47,514 nt of DNA from Candidatus Gastranaerophilales bacterium (GTDB lineage Bacteria; Cyanobacteriota; Vampirovibrionia; Gastranaerophilales; Gastranaerophilaceae). Below the pieces are notes generated by a model that worked only from the letters and a program-made list of their open reading frames with translations, ran no database searches and was not told the DNA's origin. Of the stretch, positions 20,267-44,932 are shown piece by piece. Every line of letters begins with the position of its first letter. Position 1 is the stretch's first letter. The stretch is from positions 1 through 47,514 of the forward strand of contig CALVBY010000004.1 in the NCBI GenBank assembly GCA_944325905.1, read 5' to 3'. The position numbers and the translations under genes are program-made.

Positions 20267-21913
20267 TTATTTTTTAGAATTGGAAGAATAATCGGCTGTT
20301 CCCGGGAATTGATCTGAACCTGTTGTAACTCTTGTAATCCAATATTGTATTTTTGGAATAATAGTAGACAGGAACAATGCGGAAACTGCGAAACCAACAC
20401 CCCAGTTGAGAGTATTTTTGAACATATTGTTCTTGTATGCATTTTCTAACATTCTCAAATCAATATTAACATTAGCCTTTTCAGCCTTTTTAATAGTACC
20501 TTTTACGTATTTTCTTATATTATCAATAATTTCATCCAATTCTTTTTGAGCCACAAATTTGAATGGATTTTTGTGGTTTGCAGTCGTGACTGTTGTTTTA
20601 ACGCCGTTAACGACTTTAGTTTCTTTTTCAACACCTTTGGCAACAGTAAATACATTATCCCAGAAGTCAGGATTATTCAAAGCACCACCTTTAAATAATG
20701 CTTCCGCTTGACTTTCGGCAAGAACCGAAACTCCTTCAACTTGAGGCTGTAATTTAGACATTCGTTTTGCAAGATCTGCATATTTTGCATAATCTTCCGG
20801 ACTAAATTCTTTCTTAATAACTTCAAGGAATTTGTCAAGAGTTATAGCACCATCTTTAAATGAAGGTTTAACTTTATTCATCTTATCTGCTACATCAATA
20901 TCACCAAGCATGATTTGAGCAAATTCTTTCGGCTTAATTGATAGAGCACCGGATTTTTTGTCATGATGACCAGTATGTTCAAGAACTAATTTCATATAAT
21001 CAGTTACCTGTCTTGCTCCAACAGGATTTAATCTTGTAGGTTTGCCATGTTCGATCTTGTTCATTAATTGATTTATCAATGGCATACTAAACATATAGAA
21101 GAATATAGATGACAAGTCACGCCATAAGATTTCTATTCGTTCATGATTATTTCTTGCGCTTATAGCACGGCCACCTGATATACCAACGTCTGTTGACAAC
21201 AATTGATAAGTAGTATCATATTCAAATTTGTGTGCAAGATTAAGTAATGTTTGGGCACCACCTGTAAATGCCATTTTTTGCTTTTGTTTTTGATTTTTTC
21301 CAGAACCGTCAATATTTTCGGCCTCGTCCATAAAATAATCCATACCAAATTGAGGATTATGTCCCATAGTCCTGAATTCCTCGAAGTTTACCTGAGGATT
21401 AAATTTCTTATCGTTTGCATGGTATGCTCTTGTAATTCCTTGATTTATTTTTGGAACAACAAAACCTACCAGACCATTTGCCAACAATATACTTGTGGCT
21501 ATTTTTGTAAATTTAAATGCAGCAATTTTTGATTTAGAGATATTTTGTCCATTTTCTCTAGCCCACTTCATATAGTTTTGAAGAGGTTTACGAATAGCAT
21601 CACCTTCTGCATCAAAGTTGGTATTTTTAATACCCATAAGATGTCTTAGCAAAAAGTCATTAATTTTATTAAATACTTTTACCCCAGCAAACCAGAATGC
21701 AGCTCCGATTGATTCTTCGGTGAGACGTTCTCTACCTTCATCAAACCCTCCTCTTTTAAAGGCTTGCATAGTTCTTCCACCTGTAACAAAACACTCCAAT
21801 AAAATCAAAGGTGCAAGACCTCTGAGCTCCATTCCTCTCACAAATCTTTGAGCAGGAGTAAAGTCTTTGATAGTTTGGGGAGATAATCTTAAATTTATTG
21901 GTGAAATACTCAT
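20267..21913 (-). CDS. Large membrane-associated protein of unknown function
   Basis: 548 aa, not recognised. At least two hydrophobic segments occur: about residues 138-153 and 505-519. Each is followed by a similar tail, PKINQGITR (154-162) and PKIQYWITR (520-528), suggesting an internal repeat at the membrane. Other hydrophobic patches are LAPLILLECF near 33 and IFFYMFSMPLI near 285. The middle is charged and helical. The C-terminus is Ser-rich. It is encoded convergently to the AsmA-like gene and divergently from the unknown membrane protein at 22122. Likely lineage-specific; no function proposed. Confidence 0.75.
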   Translation of the reverse strand: MSISPINLRLSPQTIKDFTPAQRFVRGMELRGLAPLILLECFVTGGRTMQAFKRGGFDEGRERLTEESIGAAFWFAGVKVFNKINDFLLRHLMGIKNTNFDAEGDAIRKPLQNYMKWARENGQNISKSKIAAFKFTKIATSILLANGLVGFVVPKINQGITRAYHANDKKFNPQVNFEEFRTMGHNPQFGMDYFMDEAENIDGSGKNQKQKQKMAFTGGAQTLLNLAHKFEYDTTYQLLSTDVGISGGRAISARNNHERIEILWRDLSSIFFYMFSMPLINQLMNKIEHGKPTRLNPVGARQVTDYMKLVLEHTGHHDKKSGALSIKPKEFAQIMLGDIDVADKMNKVKPSFKDGAITLDKFLEVIKKEFSPEDYAKYADLAKRMSKLQPQVEGVSVLAESQAEALFKGGALNNPDFWDNVFTVAKGVEKETKVVNGVKTTVTTANHKNPFKFVAQKELDEIIDNIRKYVKGTIKKAEKANVNIDLRMLENAYKNNMFKNTLNWGVGFAVSALFLSTIIPKIQYWITRVTTGSDQFPGTADYSSNSKK

Positions 21914-22121: not shown

Positions 22122-22955
22122 ATGAATATTAATTCAATAGATTTAAACCGTCCGCAAAGGTTCACTCAAGATTATGAGAAAAACAAGCTTTCACAAAAAC
22201 CTGCTCCGCAATTCGGAAATACAAACGGAGAGGCAACTAGAAATGTAAAAGTTGTTGCGGCTACGAGTTCCCTCTTAGGTACGAGTATCGTTTTAGCATT
22301 ACTGGCAAAGAAACAAGGATTTTATTTAAACCCTAAAACAATAAAAAATACTCCAATAAAGGATTGGGCAATATTTAAAATAGCTAAGAAAAATGAACCT
22401 GATCGGAAATTGCTCGAAATAGAAGAGGGAGAAATAATATCCTTGGCAACAGGTTCAATTGCAGGCGGCTTGGCCGGAGGCGCCATATTTGATAAGAAAA
22501 ATATTAAAGCTAAAGGAAGAGAAGCTCTAACACAATTAGCGGGTAATGTTTTGGTACCTGTGGGATTTGTAAGCGGAGCCTCCAAATTATACAGCAAATT
22601 TGAAGACAGCATAGTGGCAGTACTTCCTCAATTATCCGGCGAAGGTAAAGTTGTAAAATTCACTAATAAATTTATAAAAGCACTTCCTGCAATGGGAATA
22701 ACTTTATTAGCGCTAGGTGCCGGAATTTGTACAGGAAGTAAAGTTACTAATTTCATAAACGAAAAACTATTTGGACAAAAACAAAAACGAGAAATTAAAA
22801 CAAGCGACTTTGCACCACATGTTGATGATCTTTGTTTGGGAATAACACTTATGGGAGCAAAAGACTCACCCGTTGTTAGTTCTATAACAAGAACTGTTCC
22901 CCTATTTTTAGCAATCCCAGGATATCAAGTAGGAAAAGCGCAAGAAAAAGTTTAA
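22122..22955 (+). CDS. Membrane protein with F-G tag, unknown function
   Basis: 277 aa, not recognised. The N-terminus is polar and contains APQFGNTNGEA (residues 28-38), similar in style to the tags of 12203 and 22952. Hydrophobic Gly/Ala-rich stretches follow: SLLGTSIVLALLA near 51, LATGSIAGGLAGGAIF near 108 (a glycine-zipper pattern) and GITLLALGAGICTG near 192. The start has the SD GAAGGTG. It is divergent from the 548-aa gene; the 208-bp spacer between them is AT-rich and I see no hairpin there. Its end overlaps malQ on the other strand by 4 nt. Confidence 0.75.
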   Translation: MNINSIDLNRPQRFTQDYEKNKLSQKPAPQFGNTNGEATRNVKVVAATSSLLGTSIVLALLAKKQGFYLNPKTIKNTPIKDWAIFKIAKKNEPDRKLLEIEEGEIISLATGSIAGGLAGGAIFDKKNIKAKGREALTQLAGNVLVPVGFVSGASKLYSKFEDSIVAVLPQLSGEGKVVKFTNKFIKALPAMGITLLALGAGICTGSKVTNFINEKLFGQKQKREIKTSDFAPHVDDLCLGITLMGAKDSPVVSSITRTVPLFLAIPGYQVGKAQEKV

Positions 22956-24952
22956 GATTTTTCTTTTAAAATTTTTGCATAATGTTCAAGACTATCCAAC
23001 ACGGGTTGTGCTTGAACATACAATTGTTTTTTATAATCAGGATCATAATTATGAGCCTTAACATCCATGTCAAGCTTTGCCTGCAAGGCTTGATGTAGCA
23101 ATTCAGGAATATTTAATGCTGTAGGATTATCACTTGCCAGATTTTCGTAATATTTTTCTTGATAATCCGGCGTTAATCTGGCACGCCAATTTTCCTTATT
23201 ATTTGTACCTGGCTTATTATAGACAACCTCCGTAATACCAAATAAATCATCAAAAGAGATTTGGAATTTTGGAGTGGTCATAAGCTCTGCAAACTTTGCA
23301 AAAACAATTGCGCTATCACTATTTTTATATAATTCTGTCAATTGCTCACGTATTTTAGATATATTTTCACGTGAATCATCCATATTCAAATAACCCGCGA
23401 GATATTCCGGAGACCATGATTCTTGTTTTCTTGTATATTCAACATCACGCCCATCACCTGATTTAGCCGTACGTCTCAAGTAAGTCATTGCAGGAGGAGT
23501 ATCATGACTACCTAAAATAAACCAATTGTTAGGTTCATTATCCTTAATATTCTCAGCCCTAACCCAATCCAAATTAGTAAGTCTTGGCAATTTTTGTTCG
23601 GAGTATACTTTCTTAAATCGTGATGGCCAAGAACAATGATCTTCCCATACAGGTAATTCTTTATCAATACCGTGCTCCTTGAAGGTTGGAAGGACAAGTT
23701 TTTCTATGAGCTTTGTATAGTCCCAATATAGGTCATACTCAATACTTTCATTATTAGGATCTTTTAGTTCTGAAATATATTTTTCATAATTTTTATTTTT
23801 TAAATTAGGAGGTTGAGTTATAAAATCGTCATCCGGAACATTCTTAGCCAATAAATATGGTTCTATCAATCCCATAACGTGATCTATACGGATATTTTCA
23901 CAAAATTCCAAAGCGGTATCTATTTTTTCTTTTAAGAATTTTCCACCATCATTTAACTCATAATCACTATTTAGAAATATTTTCTTAGGATCAATTACCG
24001 GTATATGCCATCTTTGTGAAGGTCCACCCCATTCATATGCACCCATTTCCCAATCCGATAAAAATACATCCTCATAGCGCCATGCATCCATTTTGGAGCA
24101 TCCAACTAGTAGGTCGTTTATATATTTAAAATTATTTTCATCACGCCATTTTTTATGTTCTTTTATCTGTTTTGTCAATATAAACTGTTCAAATTTATAC
24201 TGCTCGATATCGTTGTAATTAAAATCATATATTTCAATAAATCGCTCGAAAGCTTCTTCATCACCATTCCTAAGATCAGTAATTAGGGTTCTGTCTTTTT
24301 CATTATTCCAAACCGTGTAATCGTCTGTACCGTACTTATTAGATAAAACTCTAAAGACACCTTCTTCAGTCAAACGTTCATCATGGGAACTCAAGAATTT
24401 TTTATATTCTCTATTTAATTTTATTGCTTGAATCTGGTTATCCGCCAAATTAGCCAAAAATCTTCGATAAACCTCATTTAAAGCGATATCATATATCTTA
24501 TTTGCTCTGTCAAAATCAGTCATTGTATAATTTTTATCGATTTTTTTCAATGGAAGAGTTATTTCTTCGTACGTTTTTTTAGAAAGTATTTCTCCATATT
24601 TTTCACCAGTCAAAGCTTCTAAATCAATAAATAATCTGTTATGAGCAAATGCAGAAGCATTGTATGGAGAATTTGAACCCTTCTGCAGCAATCCACCAGG
24701 CCCTAATTGATTTGAATTAAAGCCATATAAAGCCAAAAATTTGTTATATTTTTTTGCAGCACGGCCATAAGGAGAACCTATCATAGTATCCCTATAGTAC
24801 GCAGGAAAACAAGCTCCATGGGTAATAACAGCACGCTCGCTCATTCCCATAAGCTCGTAAGCTTTATTTATATTTTTTTTCAAATCAGGCTCTTCCTCCT
24901 TAGTAGGCCTGCGTTGAAAATTTACTACACTACTTACCCCTGAAATTTTCAT
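22952..24952 (-). CDS. malQ: Divergent 4-alpha-glucanotransferase (amylomaltase, GH77)
   Basis: 666 aa. It would transfer alpha-1,4-glucan segments in glycogen/maltodextrin metabolism. GH77 landmarks are NQLGPGGLLQ...NSPYNASAFAHN (residues 81-105), DWEMGAYEWGGPSQRW (300-315), RIDHVMGL with the nucleophile D357, WED with acid/base E437 where relatives have GEDLG, and SHDTPP with D484. It is longer than the usual ~500 aa. The first 17 residues (MKISGVSSVVNFQRRPT) carry an F-x-type tag seen on unrelated proteins here. The Glu loop and HD motif depart from consensus, so specificity is uncertain. It lies 32 nt downstream of the FlhA-C gene on the same strand. Confidence 0.78.
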   Translation of the reverse strand: MKISGVSSVVNFQRRPTKEEEPDLKKNINKAYELMGMSERAVITHGACFPAYYRDTMIGSPYGRAAKKYNKFLALYGFNSNQLGPGGLLQKGSNSPYNASAFAHNRLFIDLEALTGEKYGEILSKKTYEEITLPLKKIDKNYTMTDFDRANKIYDIALNEVYRRFLANLADNQIQAIKLNREYKKFLSSHDERLTEEGVFRVLSNKYGTDDYTVWNNEKDRTLITDLRNGDEEAFERFIEIYDFNYNDIEQYKFEQFILTKQIKEHKKWRDENNFKYINDLLVGCSKMDAWRYEDVFLSDWEMGAYEWGGPSQRWHIPVIDPKKIFLNSDYELNDGGKFLKEKIDTALEFCENIRIDHVMGLIEPYLLAKNVPDDDFITQPPNLKNKNYEKYISELKDPNNESIEYDLYWDYTKLIEKLVLPTFKEHGIDKELPVWEDHCSWPSRFKKVYSEQKLPRLTNLDWVRAENIKDNEPNNWFILGSHDTPPAMTYLRRTAKSGDGRDVEYTRKQESWSPEYLAGYLNMDDSRENISKIREQLTELYKNSDSAIVFAKFAELMTTPKFQISFDDLFGITEVVYNKPGTNNKENWRARLTPDYQEKYYENLASDNPTALNIPELLHQALQAKLDMDVKAHNYDPDYKKQLYVQAQPVLDSLEHYAKILKEKS

Positions 24953-24984: not shown

Positions 24985-26463
24985 CTATATCTCGCCCAAT
25001 ACCTCTACTTTATAATTACAACCAATTTCCTCATTTGCTAAAACAACAATATTATGAATGTATAGAGACAAAAGTCCGAAAAATAATTGTCTATATTCCA
25101 TAGGAACAAGTAATTTAGGACAATCAATACCCAACTTTTTAGACTGCTTTAAAATCTTATTAGCAATTTTTTCTGCAAATTCGCCATCAATTTTTACAAC
25201 TGAATCATCACCGTCTTCGCAACTAAGAAAAATTTCTTCAAAAGTCTTATCTGACAATTCAAATGCACTTATTGAGCCATCTTCATTTTCATATTTTTTA
25301 CAAATTTTATTTGAAAGAGCTAAACGTATCTTCTTTAATAAGTCAGCCTTAAAACTATCTTCCGCATAGTCATTGATTTTTTCAAATATATATATCAAAT
25401 CTTTTATTGAAACATTTTCTCTAACTAAACTTGTTAAAATAAATCGTAAATCAGCAAGCGAAATTACATCAGGAACCACATTTTCGACCAAAAATGGATT
25501 GTAATTATTAACCACATCTATATATTTGTCCAAATCCTCATAATCCAGAAGATCATCTACATATTTAACAGCAACATATTCAAGAGCCCTTGCAATATAT
25601 TCGGAACCCATAAGCCCATGGTACCAAAAATCTTTTGTCTTTTCTTTTTCTATCCAAACAATCTTCTTTCCGGTAATTTTATCTACATCATAAATAGAAT
25701 TTTTAATTTTCTTTTCCAAATTCAATTCATCGACATAAAACATCAAATGATTAGGATATATCATTGCTTTAAAAACTTCCATACCTCTGACTTTAATAGA
25801 AAATTCATAAGGATTAAGATTTTCATCATCCTTAAAAATAATCTTAGGAATAACATACCCCAATTCTTCTGTTAGCTTAAGTCGGGATTTTACAGTCTCA
25901 GCAATCAATTCCTCTTCTTGAGAATCTCTGTCATCATCTACATATCCCAAAAGCTCCTCGCTCAAATTTATAGATAACTTTTCTTCTCCTAATTTTGCAT
26001 ACATTACATCCGGAGATGTTGCTTTAGCCAATTTTGATTTTAAATCTTCCAACTCTTTTAAACCAGCTGAAATTTTATCATTAAGACGTTTTCGACTTGT
26101 GGAAGCAGGATCCGCACCATCCAGTTCCAATTTAATTTTGGCAATTTTTTCCTTTTGACTTCTTATTTTGGATTGCAAATCCAAACAAGTTTCATATGGA
26201 GAAAGTTTTGGTGAAAGCATTTTTTCCATCTGCGTTTTAAAATTAGAAATATTTATAACATCAGCATCTGAGCCATCGTTTAGTGCTTTTGCTTCCGTCA
26301 TAAAGATGCAATTATAAACAAAACCCTCATCGGATTCTACTTCCTGCATACTGTACAATTCCCAACCATTCATTGACATTTCATTCAACAAATTTTGCAA
26401 ATCTTGTACATTTTCACTTGAACAGGTTTTTACAATATATTGCATCTTATTTTTGTTAAACAT
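24985..26463 (-). CDS. Soluble FlhA C-terminal-domain protein (FHIPEP family) with DUF4177-like N-terminus
   Basis: 492 aa from ATG 26463, set by the SD AGGGGAAG; an upstream start at 26487 would overlap udp. A small alpha/beta domain (residues 5-60, DUF4177-like: NLLNEMSMNGWELYSMQEV) and a coiled coil (about 90-147) are followed from about 162 to the end by the cytoplasmic domain of FlhA/SctV. Evidence: EELGYVIPKIIFKDDENLNP, KVRGMEV, KKIVWIE, PFLVENVVPDVISLADLR (323-340) and LVRENVSIKDLIYIFEKI. In flagella this domain forms the ring that docks export chaperones. The 8-TM N-terminal half is absent. It lies between udp and malQ. Confidence 0.8.
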   Translation of the reverse strand: MFNKNKMQYIVKTCSSENVQDLQNLLNEMSMNGWELYSMQEVESDEGFVYNCIFMTEAKALNDGSDADVINISNFKTQMEKMLSPKLSPYETCLDLQSKIRSQKEKIAKIKLELDGADPASTSRKRLNDKISAGLKELEDLKSKLAKATSPDVMYAKLGEEKLSINLSEELLGYVDDDRDSQEEELIAETVKSRLKLTEELGYVIPKIIFKDDENLNPYEFSIKVRGMEVFKAMIYPNHLMFYVDELNLEKKIKNSIYDVDKITGKKIVWIEKEKTKDFWYHGLMGSEYIARALEYVAVKYVDDLLDYEDLDKYIDVVNNYNPFLVENVVPDVISLADLRFILTSLVRENVSIKDLIYIFEKINDYAEDSFKADLLKKIRLALSNKICKKYENEDGSISAFELSDKTFEEIFLSCEDGDDSVVKIDGEFAEKIANKILKQSKKLGIDCPKLLVPMEYRQLFFGLLSLYIHNIVVLANEEIGCNYKVEVLGEI

Positions 26464-26473
26464 TATTCTTCCC

Positions 26474-27244
26474 CTATTTCTTGTCACTTGAGATAAGAAT
26501 TTTTATGGCTTCTATTGCCGTTTTGATAGCTTTATCAGTATCATGAACTACAGGGTTTTCCAGATTTTGTTTTTCTCTTTCTTGATTTGCAACAACTAAA
26601 AATACAGAACCAACCTTAACTCTCAAGAAACTTGCAACTATAAACAATGCTGCAGATTCCATCTCTGAAGCCAAGCACCCCATACGCTTCCATGCTTCCC
26701 ACTTTTCGGTTAACTCATAACTTACAGGCATTCTATCCGGGTTATGTTGTCCATAAAAAGAATCCTTGCATTGAACTACACCTACATGTTTTTCGTATCC
26801 CAGAGCAGATGCTGCACTAACAAGAGAATTGACTATATCTAAGTTTGCTACAGCAGGATATTCAACGGGCGCATATTCTTTGCTTGTACCTTCCATTCTA
26901 ATAGCACCCGTTGCAATAACCACATCGCCACCTTTTACATCAATATCAATGCCACCGCAAGTACCTACACGAATAAATGTATCTGCACCAACATTTACCA
27001 GTTCCTCCAACGCGATTGCTGCAGACGGACCACCTATACCGGTTGAAGTTACACTAACCTTTTCTCCGCACAGATACCCGGTATACGTTGTATACTCACG
27101 GTTATCGGCTACCAATTTGGCATCGTCAAAATATTCAGCAATTTTTTTGCAACGTTTTGGATCACCGGGCAAAATAACATATTTACCCACGTCACCCTCT
27201 TTTAATCCTATATGATACTGAGTTCCATCTGCTGAATATTTCAT
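26474..27244 (-). CDS. udp: Uridine phosphorylase (PNP/UDP family 1)
   Basis: 256 aa. It cleaves uridine with phosphate to uracil and ribose-1-phosphate for salvage. [20 protein letters not shown] opens the protein. [19 protein letters not shown] and [10 protein letters not shown] form the phosphate and ribose sites, and [14 protein letters not shown] is the nucleoside-binding Met-Glu motif. Length and motifs fit Udp better than DeoD, but other nucleoside specificity is possible. The SD AGGAGAG precedes the ATG. It is third in a minus-strand series bamA-skp-udp, with 12 nt between skp and udp. Confidence 0.9.
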
Positions 27245-27256
27245 AAACTCTCCTTA

Positions 27257-27715
27257 TTAGTATTTACCATTTTTAAGCTTTTGTATAACAAGGTCAGTTA
27301 CATCCAAACCGCCAACAAATATAACTCTGTAATCAACTATAGCATCAAGTTTTTGCTCTACCATTACATCTTTTGTTGCAGCCTGAATTTTGTTATATAT
27401 TTGTTCTTCTTTTGACATTTTCAACTTCAAATAGGCTTCTTCTTTTGCCTTGAATTCGCGAGCAGTTGCATCTTCAAAATTTTTCTTTTTCAATGGCGTA
27501 TCCAAAGACTTATACTGTTTTTCTTTATCTACCATATACTGTTGAAGTTCCAAACCTTTAGCATCAACTTCTTTAACCGCTTGAATAGCAAAAGAATAGT
27601 TTTCTTGAACTTTTTGGTAGTTAACAAAACCAATACCTGCAGCCTCAACCTTCATTGAAAAAGCTGCTAAAACTGCTAATGTTGCAGTCAAGGTTGCTAA
27701 TCCTAATTTTTTCAT
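27257..27715 (-). CDS. OmpH/Skp family periplasmic chaperone
   Basis: 152 aa with a clear signal peptide (MKKLGLATLTATLAVLAAF, cleavage near VEA-AG). The mature part begins IGFVNYQKVQENYSF, the usual Skp opening, then forms a long helical hairpin rich in Lys/Glu (residues 45-120). It ends VDYRVIFVGGLDVTDLVIQKL, the family's closing motif. Skp holds unfolded outer-membrane proteins in the periplasm for BamA. It lies 17 nt downstream of bamA, the classic arrangement, with the SD AAGGAGG. Confidence 0.9.
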   Translation of the reverse strand: MKKLGLATLTATLAVLAAFSMKVEAAGIGFVNYQKVQENYSFAIQAVKEVDAKGLELQQYMVDKEKQYKSLDTPLKKKNFEDATAREFKAKEEAYLKLKMSKEEQIYNKIQAATKDVMVEQKLDAIVDYRVIFVGGLDVTDLVIQKLKNGKY

Positions 27716-27732
27716 GTTAATAATCCTCCTTA

Positions 27733-29724
27733 TTAATACAATAAATCACCTACACCAAATGTAAAGTAACCGTTTTCGGAACCATTTCTACCCGGATTGG
27801 TAAGCGGAATACCATAATCGATTGACAAAGGTCCCATTCCCGGTATATACAATTTTAAACCAACACCTGCTGATACAGCATACATAGGTCTGTCATACAA
27901 AATATCCGATACGTTCCCATCGAAAACTTTACCCGCATCAACAAACATTGTGAATCTTATGTTATTAAGAAATTTAATTCTTGTTCTATCAACAAAAGGA
28001 ATTGGCGTTGCAAACTCAGCAGAACCCATTACAAAGGCGTTACCGGTACCTACACCGCTCATTTTAAAACCTCTGATTGTGTATGGACCACCTAAACGAT
28101 ATGCCATAACTTCAGGCATATTATCACCGTGGATTTTGCCTCCGGCCTTCGCAGTAAATGATAATGATGATTTTTTACCGATAGGTATATATTGCTTAAC
28201 CATACCTGTCAATTTACCGTGAGTTTTATCAAATCCGTCAAGACCAATTTCTTCATCAAATCTTATACTTGCTAAAGTTCCATGTCTTGTAACGGTAGCT
28301 GAATCACGTGTATCGTAAATCAAAGCAGGGCTTAATGACATAAATAAACCGCCTTCAAGTTGTTTTGCACGTTCACTTATAGGAATGTTATATTTATTGT
28401 ATAAGCTTGCAATTTTATTAAAATCACCTTCTTTTACATTAATATTTTCAACACCTAAAGAAAATGTCGCATTAGCGTGTTTATTACTCTTTATACGATG
28501 TGCAACAGTAACCTCAGCACCAATTCTTTGTTCAATGGCCAACGGAACCTGATAACTACCAAAATCCCTGAAAAATACTTTCGACATCAATGAATTATCT
28601 GCATTAATAAAATAAGGCTCGTAAAAACTCAACTCTGCCTGAATATTCATATGATCCTTTACAGAAGAATCATTCAATATTACACCGGTACCAACCAAAC
28701 CATTTAATGCCAAACGTTGATTACGACCCATAAAGTTGTTATCAGCAATACCTAAAGACCCAAAAACACCGGTAACAGTATCTATACCACCACCAACCGA
28801 AACACTGGCAGTTCTCTGTTCTTCAACTTTAATAGTAACATCATAAGAATCCGGATCTTCTTCAGTTGGCTCTATTTCTCGAGTAACATCTTTAAATGCT
28901 TGAGATGCATATAACCTCACCAAATCTTCTTTAATAAGGTTTTCGTTATAAATCATGCCAGGTTCTGTCAAAACATTACGCTCGATAACATAATCTTTTG
29001 TCTTTTCGTTACCCTCAATCATGATTTTATTGATAGTACCTTCTTTTATAGCGATATTTATTGTTCCATCCGGATCGTCCGTAACAGATTCAACTCTTGC
29101 TAAAATGTAACCTTTAGAAGAATAAACATCTTGAATATCGTATATAGCTTGATTTATCTGCGCAACATTTTGCGGCTTTCCTTTCATAGGTAAAAGACAA
29201 TCCAAAATTTCTTCTGTTGAAACCACCGTATTTCCTTCAACCGTAAAATCTTTTACCGGCAAATTTTCTTCTAATATAATTTTTAAAGTAACCGTACCAT
29301 CCGGGTTATTAACAGGAATAGCTTTCATATTCTCTGAAAAATAGCCGAGTTGATATATAGCTTTCAAATCTGTTTGAACAATATCTCTGCTGTATGCTGA
29401 ACCTTTTTGCAAAGTCATTTTATCAATAATGTCTTTAGGGTCTAAAGCATTTACACCGTATAATTCAATATCTTTTATTATTTTTTGTTCTTTATTTACA
29501 GCCTGTTCCGGATTAGCTTCTTTATGTATTTCTGTTGCTTGAGTAGAAGTTTCTTCGGCTTTAGGTGCTTCCTCTTCAATTTTTTGGACTTCTTGCTTAT
29601 CCTGAACATCAGGGTCTATACTTTTTCTACCCCAAAAATCACCTATAGCAAAAGCATTAAGGGGAAATGCAAATAGCAAAAATAGGGTTACTATTAACTT
29701 ATAAAATTTTTTATGAAAAATCAA
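27733..29724 (-). CDS. bamA: Outer membrane protein assembly factor BamA (Omp85)
   Basis: 663 aa. A TTG start at 29724 follows AAGGA; I find no in-frame ATG. Signal peptide FYKLIVTLFLLFAFPLNAFA, then a Glu-rich linker (about 30-75), then about three POTRA repeats (KDIELYGVNALDPKDIIDK; VKDFTVEGNTVVSTEEIL; INKIMIEGNEKTKDYVI). A 16-strand barrel region follows, with the Omp85 signature YTIRGFKM near 550 and a terminal aromatic strand (YFTFGVGDLLY). It inserts beta-barrels into the outer membrane. Fewer POTRAs than in E. coli, as in cyanobacterial Omp85. TATAAT-type sequences lie just upstream. Confidence 0.93.
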   Translation of the reverse strand: MIFHKKFYKLIVTLFLLFAFPLNAFAIGDFWGRKSIDPDVQDKQEVQKIEEEAPKAEETSTQATEIHKEANPEQAVNKEQKIIKDIELYGVNALDPKDIIDKMTLQKGSAYSRDIVQTDLKAIYQLGYFSENMKAIPVNNPDGTVTLKIILEENLPVKDFTVEGNTVVSTEEILDCLLPMKGKPQNVAQINQAIYDIQDVYSSKGYILARVESVTDDPDGTINIAIKEGTINKIMIEGNEKTKDYVIERNVLTEPGMIYNENLIKEDLVRLYASQAFKDVTREIEPTEEDPDSYDVTIKVEEQRTASVSVGGGIDTVTGVFGSLGIADNNFMGRNQRLALNGLVGTGVILNDSSVKDHMNIQAELSFYEPYFINADNSLMSKVFFRDFGSYQVPLAIEQRIGAEVTVAHRIKSNKHANATFSLGVENINVKEGDFNKIASLYNKYNIPISERAKQLEGGLFMSLSPALIYDTRDSATVTRHGTLASIRFDEEIGLDGFDKTHGKLTGMVKQYIPIGKKSSLSFTAKAGGKIHGDNMPEVMAYRLGGPYTIRGFKMSGVGTGNAFVMGSAEFATPIPFVDRTRIKFLNNIRFTMFVDAGKVFDGNVSDILYDRPMYAVSAGVGLKLYIPGMGPLSIDYGIPLTNPGRNGSENGYFTFGVGDLLY

Positions 29725-38944: not shown

Positions 38945-38973
38945 TTGTATTATTGCTAAATGTTCATTATAAT
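38945..38973 (+). promoter_or_regulatory. Promoter of the FliI/SctN gene
   Basis: TTGTAT (38945-38950), 17 nt and TATAAT (38968-38973) precede ATG 38981 by 7 nt. It directly abuts the end of element 2. Confidence 0.6.
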
Positions 38974-38980
38974 AGAGGTA

Positions 38981-40327
38981 ATGAGCGAAATTGATATATC
39001 AAGACTTGAAGAAATAAAGGGGAAAGTTCACCGGAAACTTGAGAAAACCGAACTTTACAGATACAAAGGAACGGTATCTAAACTTTTGGGATTAACAGTT
39101 GAGGTTAAACTTCCCGGACTTAAAATTGGTGACTTGTGCTACATAGAAACCAATGACGGGCAACAAAAGCCTGCTGAAGTTGTTGCCTTCAAAGGCGAAA
39201 TGGCACAATTACTATTGCTCTTGGACGGCGTTGGAATAGGACAGGGAAGTCTTGTAACTTCAACAGGCAGACCAATTATTATACCCGTAGGTGATTTTCT
39301 GTTGGGCAGACTTATTGACCCGATGGGACAACCTCTGGACGGCAGACCGCTTGATACAACAGGAGCCCAATGGCGCTCAATAGAGGGGCCGCCGCCAGGG
39401 CCGTTTGAAAGACCGATTATTACAGAAATTTTCTCAACAGGAGTCCGAGCAATAGATTCCTGTATGACAATGGGGTGCGGACAACGTTTAGGACTTTTTG
39501 CAGGTTCCGGTGTTGGTAAAAGTACTCTACTAGGTATGATAGCTAGAAACTCCGATGCAGATGTAAACGTTATGGCACTAATCGGAGAACGTGGCCGTGA
39601 GGTTAAAGAATTTATAGAAGATTCATTGGGCGAAGAAGGAATGAAAAGGTCCGTTCTTGTATGCTCTACAGGGGACAAGCCTCCGCTGATAAGGCAAAAA
39701 GCGCTTCTTGCAGCAACTGCTGTTTGTGAATATTTTAGAGATCAAGGCAAAAAAGTTTTCTTAATGACAGATACCGTAACTCGTTGCGCTATGGCGGGTC
39801 GTGAAGTAGGCTTGGCAACAGGTGAACCGCCAACAATGAAGGGATATCCGCCATCTATATTTTCTTGGCTTCAAAAAGTTTTGGAACGCGCAGGAAATAG
39901 TCCTAAAGGTTCAATTACTGCACTATACACTGTTCTTATGGAAGGTGACGATATTTCTGACCCAATTGTAGATACTGTTAGAGGTATTGTAGACGGGCAC
40001 ATTTTCCTGTCAAGAAAAGTTGCAGAAATGAACCATTATCCTGCTATTGACGTTTTAGGAAGTATCTCAAGACTTATGTCAGCAATTGCATCTCCTGAAC
40101 ATAAAGCAGCTGCTGCTAAGATGAGAACAATTCTTGCAATGTATCGGGAAAATAAAGACTTAATTGACGTCGGTATGTATCAACCGGGCTCTAATCCAAA
40201 ACTTGACATTGCAATAGAAATGATACCGCAAGTAAATGCCTTTTTACAACAGCGTGTGTCAGATAGTGTTACTATGGAAAATACCATTAATACACTTATC
40301 AATATGATGAAAAACGTTGATATTTAA
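38981..40327 (+). CDS. fliI: FliI/SctN-type ATPase of a flagellar or type III export system
   Basis: 448 aa from ATG 38981; ATG 38960 is upstream of the -10 box and is disfavoured. It is the hexameric ATPase that unloads chaperones and energises type III export. An N-terminal beta-barrel domain (about 25-95) precedes the core: Walker A GLFAGSGVGKST (about 172-182), LIGERGREVKEFIED, Walker B VFLMTDTVTRCAMAGREVGLATGEPP, and VLMEGDDISDPIVDTVRGIVDGHIFLSRKVA, with C-terminal YRENKDLIDVGMYQPGSNP. These separate it from F1-beta and Rho. No fliH, fliJ, fliF or hook genes are adjacent. Whether it serves a flagellum or another export system cannot be decided here. Confidence 0.9.
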   Translation: MSEIDISRLEEIKGKVHRKLEKTELYRYKGTVSKLLGLTVEVKLPGLKIGDLCYIETNDGQQKPAEVVAFKGEMAQLLLLLDGVGIGQGSLVTSTGRPIIIPVGDFLLGRLIDPMGQPLDGRPLDTTGAQWRSIEGPPPGPFERPIITEIFSTGVRAIDSCMTMGCGQRLGLFAGSGVGKSTLLGMIARNSDADVNVMALIGERGREVKEFIEDSLGEEGMKRSVLVCSTGDKPPLIRQKALLAATAVCEYFRDQGKKVFLMTDTVTRCAMAGREVGLATGEPPTMKGYPPSIFSWLQKVLERAGNSPKGSITALYTVLMEGDDISDPIVDTVRGIVDGHIFLSRKVAEMNHYPAIDVLGSISRLMSAIASPEHKAAAAKMRTILAMYRENKDLIDVGMYQPGSNPKLDIAIEMIPQVNAFLQQRVSDSVTMENTINTLINMMKNVDI

Positions 40328-43375: not shown

Positions 43376-44932
43376 ATGGGACTGGCGGCATCACAAGCAA
43401 GATTTCTAGCCATAACATCCAGAAAAGCATATTGTGAATTTGAATCAATGCAAATTGCACAAGAAAAGCTTTCCGTTACTCGTGACTTGGCAAAAATTTC
43501 AGAAGACTATCAAAATGCTTTAAATAAAACAAAATTAGTATGGGATTATGATGGAACGGGAACAAATCCTTATAACCTTTCTTATGGTGTTTTGATGACT
43601 CCAACAACACTTAATAACTATAACCCTTACCTCATAACAAGCAGAACCGGCTCTGTCGTATTAAACAGCCAACTTGCAGCTGCAGCATCCGTAATAAGTC
43701 CTACAGGAACAGCCACAACAGCATCTGAAAGTGGTTATAAACAATTTGTCGCTGCACTAGCTGCAAACGGTGTAATACCCGAATCGACAGCGGAGGATAT
43801 TTCTGATACTGAAACCTTACCTTACAGCAAAGATGCAGGCTATGGCGGCACTCCACTAAACAAGAATGGCGCAAGTGCTTCAAATATAGTCGGACTAACT
43901 TATGCAGTAAAAGACATAAATATTGGTAGTATTTTATCTGAGTTGATTGACTCAAGTGGTAAATTATCAAATGATAATACTCTAAAAGTAACTGTAAATG
44001 GCACTGACCTATCTAAAGACCAACTTGCCGAATTAACTCTTGATGAACTTTTGACAAATGATGTCATCATTAGAGAACAAGGCGAAGATAGTGAAGATAG
44101 TTATTCAGATTTTGCTCTGGCAGATATACTAAAACAATTTTTTGAAGAAGTTAATGAAGGATTTAAAGGAATTTTAGGTACTGACGAAGTATCAAAACAA
44201 TCTCTAAATATTGCAAAAGATTTAACATACAAGAATTTCAGTGAAGTAAAAAACATTGATGCAGACAAAATTTCAAATACAGCTTCGTGGAATAGAGCGA
44301 AAGAAAATATTGGATATAACCAAATAGTATTCGTCAAAAATAGTGGTAAAAAGAACAATTCTACAGTTGGTGTAAGCTTAAGCAATATGATTTCATACTA
44401 TTTGACAGAATTTGAACTATTGCTAAACGGTTATAATTCTAGTTACAGCTTAGGACAAACCGCCGATTCATCAAACTTCGTCACTGATGATCCTTACTAT
44501 AATTATGTAATGAAAGATAGTGATTCTGTAGACAGTGTAACTGTTATGCAGGCAGACTTTTATATGCAATTATATAACAATATCTGTGCAAATGGTTGGA
44601 CACAAAATGACAATATTGAAGATAATAATTATCTTGAAAACGCCTTAAAAAATGGAACTTACTTCATAACATCACTTAATGAAGATGGTTATTTCTATCA
44701 AGGCAGATATAATGAAGAAGATTGCATAATAGAAATTAAGGATGAAGATGCAATAGCTCAAGCAGAAGCTGAATTTAGCACTAAAAAGACACAATTAACA
44801 TACAAAGAAGATAAATTGGATCTAGATATGAAAAATTTAGATACTGAAATTTCTTCTTTGACAACCGAGTACGACTCTGTTAAGAACCTGATTAGCAAAA
44901 ACGTAGAAAAAGTGTTCACAATGTTCCAATAA
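43376..44932 (+). CDS. Protein with conserved helical termini, possible export substrate, unknown function
   Basis: 518 aa. The first ~55 residues form an amphipathic helix (MGLAASQARFLAITSRKAY, then MQIAQEKLSVTRDLAKISE), and the last ~65 a coiled coil (IAQAEAEFSTKKTQLTYKED to NLISKNVEKVFTMFQ). The middle is Ser/Thr/Asn/Asp-rich, low in Cys, and more variable in character. No signal peptide. Such helical ends around a variable core recall flagellin, hook-associated and type III filament proteins, but no family motif proves this. SD AAAGGAA precedes the ATG. Bases 43135-43375 upstream are AT-rich with no clear signal. It lies 3 kb from fliI. Confidence 0.7.
   Translation: MGLAASQARFLAITSRKAYCEFESMQIAQEKLSVTRDLAKISEDYQNALNKTKLVWDYDGTGTNPYNLSYGVLMTPTTLNNYNPYLITSRTGSVVLNSQLAAAASVISPTGTATTASESGYKQFVAALAANGVIPESTAEDISDTETLPYSKDAGYGGTPLNKNGASASNIVGLTYAVKDINIGSILSELIDSSGKLSNDNTLKVTVNGTDLSKDQLAELTLDELLTNDVIIREQGEDSEDSYSDFALADILKQFFEEVNEGFKGILGTDEVSKQSLNIAKDLTYKNFSEVKNIDADKISNTASWNRAKENIGYNQIVFVKNSGKKNNSTVGVSLSNMISYYLTEFELLLNGYNSSYSLGQTADSSNFVTDDPYYNYVMKDSDSVDSVTVMQADFYMQLYNNICANGWTQNDNIEDNNYLENALKNGTYFITSLNEDGYFYQGRYNEEDCIIEIKDEDAIAQAEAEFSTKKTQLTYKEDKLDLDMKNLDTEISSLTTEYDSVKNLISKNVEKVFTMFQ

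Follow-up and report, generated by a model that had tools for sequence, protein, structure and literature searches.

The locus described here raises the question of what the cytoplasmic domain of an export-gate protein, made without its membrane half, does in a member of the Gastranaerophilales, gut bacteria with a relationship to cyanobacteria, and to which apparatus, if any, it belongs. The gene lies in a contig stretch of 47,514 nucleotides, which is referred to below as the window; its product, P0001, is a soluble paralog of the cytoplasmic domain of FlhA (FlhA-C).

A complete FlhA cytoplasmic domain without the membrane half

The gene and its parts are the following:
24985..26463, minus strand: soluble FlhA-C paralog (P0001), coding sequence; 492 aa, ATG at 26463, stop codon at 24985-24987
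26469..26475, minus strand: Shine-Dalgarno-like AGGGGAA, 5 bases upstream of the ATG, read from the sequence
26293..26463, minus strand: N-terminal domain, residues 1-57, beta-alpha-beta-beta, weakly DUF4177-like
26020..26199, minus strand: helical hairpin, residues 89-116 and 122-148
24988..26013, minus strand: FlhA cytoplasmic domain, residues 151-492, linker remnant followed by D1-D2-D3-D4
25309..25545, minus strand: D3 subdomain, residues ~307-385, the best-kept part

That P0001 contains the FlhA cytoplasmic domain from start to end and lacks the membrane half forming the export gate, as the earlier note on this DNA had proposed, is confirmed. The Pfam family FHIPEP matches with an E value of 3.6e-48, residues 142-482 aligning with positions 312-654 of the 657 in the profile, and positions 1-311, the membrane half, have no counterpart in P0001. 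A single-sequence search of the PDB (phmmer) found FlhA (3mix) at 1.5e-23, a profile of the P0001 family found FlhA/SctV cytoplasmic domains at 1.2e-49, and every significant PDB match is such a domain. An AlphaFold2 model (46 sequences; mean pLDDT of 82) gave FlhA-C (6ch1) as the best Foldseek match, the comparison that the note had recommended, with an E value of 2.0e-23 and a TM-score of 0.82 normalised to the target. Hydropathy analysis found no transmembrane segment in P0001, the peak being 1.59 against a threshold of 1.6; among 57 orthologues, four exceed the threshold in one window. When the full-length FlhA of the same genome was compared to the window with tblastn, the sole match was at 24988-26085; the membrane half is encoded neither upstream of P0001 nor elsewhere in the window.

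The missing membrane half is the one feature that P0001 shares with a truncated, frameshifted or decaying flhA. However, the reading frame is intact in 57 of 57 orthologues, and P0001 and one of these differ at 66, 29 and 225 first, second and third codon positions (190 synonymous and 67 nonsynonymous codons), which argues for a real gene under purifying selection. Together with the conserved additional N-terminus and an intact, separate FlhA, this leaves such decay practically no probability. A missing FHIPEP match, or membrane helices in a frameshifted upstream frame, had been named in the note as grounds for rejection; with the profile and structure matches, the hydropathy, the tblastn result and the codon differences, neither was encountered.

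Less of the proposed N-terminal half could be retained as it stood. A small domain is indeed present and is predicted as beta-alpha-beta-beta at residues 7-57, with L26, N27, M29, W34 and F54 invariant, but its identity as DUF4177 (PF13783) falls below the threshold (14.2 bits; Pfam gathering score 25); a match at E <= 0.01 is obtained for 5 of 46 homologues, 3e-4 being the best, and the fold has no match in the PDB at E <= 1e-3. It is followed by a low-confidence, probably flexible stretch (residues ~58-85) and by a helical segment which had been taken for a coiled coil and is predicted to be a hairpin of two helices, in which K111 and N128 are invariant. No match to FliJ or YscO was found for the hairpin in Pfam, the likeness being that of two helices in general.

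A second flagellar-type export system

The neighbourhood in which P0001 is encoded had been described as bamA-skp-udp-malQ and not flagellar. For the immediate neighbours this is correct; further away, the window holds a type III secretion ATPase of the FliI type:
22952..24952, minus strand: malQ-like 4-alpha-glucanotransferase, downstream of P0001
26474..27244, minus strand: uridine phosphorylase-type gene (udp), just upstream; the P0001 gene starts 10 nt past its stop codon
27257..27715, minus strand: skp/OmpH-like (Pfam)
27733..29724, minus strand: bamA, POTRA plus Omp85 (Pfam)
38960..40327, plus strand: FliI/SctN-type ATPase of the class-B system (see below), 455 aa

Two further neighbours (20267-21913 and 22122-22955) have no Pfam match and are conserved and syntenic in close relatives.

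The genome from which the window derives (G000) encodes two FHIPEP proteins, P0001 (165 bits) and a full-length FlhA (725 bits; contig C9, 13640-15616). The gene of the latter (L063 13592-15685) is the last of a run fliE-fliF-(FliG position)-fliH-flhA (L063 13592-19440). FliO, FliP, FliQ and FliR are encoded on contig C2 (L120) together with a protein containing two FliM/N C-terminal domains, FlhB is encoded on contig C58, and contig C77 encodes FlgC- and FlgF/G-like proteins. The ATPase of the window (Pfam T3SS_ATPase_C, 4e-27) is 80% identical to the product of the fliI beside the corresponding flhA in another genome (G138); it lies 12.5 kb from the P0001 gene, and a similar spacing of ~13 kb is found in G054 and G001, whereas in G064 and G058 the two genes are on different contigs, so that this linkage is not kept in all lineages. 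The view of P0001 as a rewired FlhA therefore holds for the gate-free fusion; it does not hold for a stand-alone FlhA, as a full-length member of the same subfamily is encoded in its own operon.

FHIPEP genes are present in every one of the 286 genomes of the order, and their full-length products fall into two classes. Class A (~860-890 bits) is found in ~115 of the 286 by our count from the result table, about 60% of the genomes being without it; its gene adjoins fliP-Q-R-flhB and, in G138, also FlgI/J/K/L-like genes, which were named by eye. Class B (~730 bits), about 36-39% identical to class A, is present in nearly all 286 and is mostly the top match where class A is absent. Among 11 genomes compared, carriers of class A have two FliF, two FlhB and two FliP, the others one of each; two FliI were found in both class-A genomes checked. 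Since the gene sets are doubled with class A and single without it, class B is a complete, divergent second export system of the flagellar type and not the leftover of a flagellum.

By the criteria applied, neither of the known systems accommodates it. From a canonical flagellum class B differs in the scores of FlhA (698.5 bits; equivalog cut-off 772.1) and FliI (568.4; cut-off 629.8), in the protein at the FliG position, which has no match to FliG, and in the hook, the Flg_bbr_C proteins of the genome being FlgC- and FlgF/G-like only; from an injectisome it differs in the scores against SctV (584.1; cut-off 692.25) and SctN (552.2; cut-off 604.75). The ATPase of the window is below the cut-off of every NCBIfam FliI clade and of the SctN equivalog. 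With 160.8 bits P0001 itself stays far from the equivalog cut-off of FlhA (772.1), and with 90.8 bits it does not reach that of SctV (692.25). The class-B system is present in essentially all Gastranaerophilales; its loci (L063 13592-19440, L120 7884-11759, L125, L127) also encode a FliM/N protein, rod-like proteins (FlgB, FlgC, FlgF/G) and a lytic transglycosylase.

Distribution and ancestry of the soluble paralog

A search of the order for the same fusion, as the note had suggested, recovered full-length, collinear orthologues in 190 of 192 sampled genomes, with identities of about 33-87%; the full-length FlhA in the same genome, also to be looked for, is the 725-bit protein described above. 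The arrangement had been considered unusual; conserved as it is across the order, P0001 represents a paralog of long standing and no isolated curiosity. No orthologue was found in G135 (98% complete) and G028 (83% complete), and as G135 has the class-B fliE-FlhA cluster, the soluble paralog is not strictly required. The named relatives of P0001 are metagenome-assembled genomes of gut Candidatus Gastranaerophilales. In other orders of the class no orthologue was recognised, the matches being FlhA C-domains of ~700-aa proteins or shorter paralogs of other architecture. P0001 was also considered as a mobile or phage gene and this was rejected; viral contigs contain no relative, 80% coverage of the query is reached by none of the plasmid records, and those plasmid matches that carry a name are SctV genes.

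A tree calculated from 115 C-domains places the soluble paralogs (57 of 57; support 0.906) and class-B FlhA (26 of 26; support 0.984) in one clade each and joins the two against class A with a support of 1.0; the soluble paralogs are monophyletic, and class-B FlhA is their sister group. Pairwise comparison agrees, P0001 being about 30% identical to class B (~150 bits) and reaching ~60-90 bits with class A. The mean clade depth is 1.19 for the soluble paralogs and 0.25 for class B, i.e., the former evolve about 5 times faster. The soluble paralog co-occurs with class-B FlhA irrespective of whether a flagellum-type system is present; this association is statistically weak because both genes are near-universal.

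Retained and altered residues

The nearest relative of the P0001 C-domain is thus found in the same genomes and differs from it in being full length with a membrane half, in its fliE-F-G-H operon and in evolving much more slowly. To see which parts have diverged, the limits of D1-D4 in Salmonella FlhA were transferred by their numbering through the P0001/PDB alignments. Mean identity between the soluble and the class-B proteins is highest in D3 (0.40), followed by D1a (0.33), the linker (0.27), D4 (0.18) and D2 (0.16). A P-x-x-M-Y motif in the linker is common to both.

In FlhA of Salmonella, a dimple containing F459 and T490 binds chaperones and the linker region around W354 is needed for ring formation and stability (PMC8166844), and the GYXLI motif has been implicated in an open-close switch (PMC9431611). 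The position of F459 is aromatic in 58 of 58 FlhA-A/B proteins; of 57 soluble paralogs, 41 have T and 11 have S, and no aromatic residue was tallied. At the position of T490 all 58 have T or S and the soluble proteins mostly R, K or E, the following His (H491 position) being lost as well. The GYXLI glycine (G368) is conserved in 58 of 58 and is S in 54 of 57 soluble paralogs, while the D at the D456 position is retained in 55 of these 57.

With respect to the FlhA/SctV family (FHIPEP, PF00771; TIGR01398, TIGR01399), P0001 therefore has the whole D1-D4 fold, the end of the linker and the VSIKD motif of D3; unlike the family it has no membrane gate, the dimple and GYXLI residues are replaced, and an N-terminal domain and a hairpin are added. 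From the subdomain identities and these substitutions it is deduced that scaffold and ring-side parts are kept, with docking and switching parts changed.

Possible function

The best explanation, to which we assign a probability of about one half, is that P0001 serves the class-B export apparatus as an accessory subunit in the cytoplasm, which docks onto the FlhA-B ring or inserts into it and is not itself an export gate. We infer this function, the association with the class-B system being a genomic one. In this view P0001 would be a paralog of the class-B FlhA cytoplasmic domain that is dedicated to such a task and has no gate function; it would dock through the retained D3, D1 and linker contacts, those via D3 being plausible because this subdomain is retained, and the N-terminal domain with the hairpin would present a new surface for a substrate, a chaperone or a FliJ/FliH-like partner. 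Its role would then be that of a sorting adaptor or ring regulator rather than of a canonical chaperone receptor. Several observations do not fit easily: the immediate neighbours are housekeeping genes, linkage to fliI is broken in two genomes, G135 has the class-B cluster alone, and the co-occurrence carries little weight as both partners are near-universal. Further, CdsO, a FliJ homologue, docks at D4, which in P0001 is among the least conserved parts.

It is also conceivable, if unlikely, that P0001 acts off the ring as a free cytosolic receptor or shuttle, which binds substrates or chaperones via its N-terminal domain and hairpin and delivers or titrates them, the FlhA-C part serving as a scaffold without ring assembly. 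It has no membrane anchor, the stretch between N-terminal domain and hairpin (residues 58-85) is flexible, and the altered dimple makes new partners likely; however, a pure shuttle would not need the ring-forming D3, which is the part kept best. Equally doubtful is a co-option outside secretion, where the FlhA-C fold would be reused, either for regulation or for envelope biogenesis in connection with bamA-skp. Of 18 contexts examined, 8 have the gene of the soluble paralog no more than a few kb from bamA-skp; these represent several genera of one family (f1; window 27257-29724, L067-L070, L129, L130, L139). The fast evolution of the soluble paralog relative to FlhA-B would fit as well, but the other families examined do not show this linkage, and the sister relationship to class-B FlhA and the order-wide co-occurrence with the class-B system speak against it. 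Very little favours a component of the class-A flagellar system: in family f7 (G007; L124 8888-13107) fliJ, fliK, flgD and the hook-like flgE lie downstream of the gene and may belong to a flagellum, an arrangement also at odds with an accessory class-B subunit. Yet P0001 or its orthologue is present in the genome of the window and in most genomes lacking class-A FlhA, the second FliF and the second FlhB, which renders this role highly improbable, and its presence without class A rules out that it is part of a flagellum only.

Candidate substrates and other free FlhA-C modules

A protein which may be exported by the class-B system is encoded in the window:
43376..44932, plus strand: 518-aa protein with an architecture like that of flagellin or hook proteins; candidate for export by the class-B system

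Related proteins are encoded beside other class-B clusters (L120 11844-13658, L064 4658-5917, L208 6778-7287). The four have ~45 N-terminal and ~50 C-terminal residues in common, with an N-terminus of the form MGxAAxQAR and conserved terminal helices, and variable middles; conserved ends with a variable middle are the layout of flagellin/hook-type axial proteins. The 518-aa protein and its relative on L120 align throughout (34% identity). The family, which has no match in Pfam, is a plausible candidate for exports of the class-B system, judging from architecture and gene position.

In other genomes, free FlhA-C modules are tied physically, by operon or fusion, to the class-B apparatus. A genome from another order of the class (G311) encodes a 289-aa FlhA-C paralog (FHIPEP, 3e-16) directly behind flhA-B of its fliE-F-G-H-flhA operon (L366 5997-6866). 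In G041 and G049, fusions of ~593 aa (L352 1498-3279, L353 391-2169) join the N-domain of the FliG-position protein (hmm E values 1.6e-21 and 1.1e-25, respectively) to an FlhA-C without D2; they have apparent membrane helices, as seen by eye, and adjoin a hybrid histidine kinase. Shorter D1-D3 forms without D2 are found in G016, G084, G128, G158 and G187. More short FlhA-C paralogs, many without D2 (chaperone-dimple), occur on L356, L357, L359, L360, L361 and L362-L365.

The FlhA/SctV export gate is regarded as a homo-nonamer built from one protein; a separate FlhA-C with altered docking residues throughout an order suggests that a sorting platform can combine more than one protein. Rather tentatively, it may be proposed that Gastranaerophilales and relatives run a non-motor secretion machine of the flagellar type, kept after flagella were lost, in which free FlhA-C paralogs join the FlhA-B ring, making the platform hetero-oligomeric, and retune the substrates it accepts, among them the new axial-like family. 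P0001 would be the order-wide paralog of this kind and the others patchy, some of them lacking D2 or joined to the N-domain of the FliG-position protein.

While the FlhA-C domain as such is known, a separate, rebuilt and order-wide FlhA-C is undescribed in the literature searched, which contained no relevant paper about soluble paralogs of FlhA, nor any about type III secretion by Gastranaerophilales. FlhX, a paralog of the C-terminal region of FlhB in Campylobacterota, resembles P0001 in principle, as in both cases the cytoplasmic portion of a protein of the export gate exists in an additional, free copy; it differs in deriving from FlhB instead of FlhA and is not known to have an added domain. 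It has been named as a secretion protein (PMC9321776). Flagellum-less Gastranaerophilales are described as keeping part of the flagellar gene set, with no functional flagellum expected (PMC4040986; PMC3787301); our data indicate that what was reported as “incomplete flagella” in these gut bacteria (PMC4040986) is for the most part an intact second export system which has outlived the flagellum. Di Rienzi et al. (2013) list two flhA among 13 flagellar genes common to four genomes, one of which is filament-less (PMC3787301); the second of these (ACD20_26563.5896.13G0002), called flhA there, may be an orthologue of P0001.
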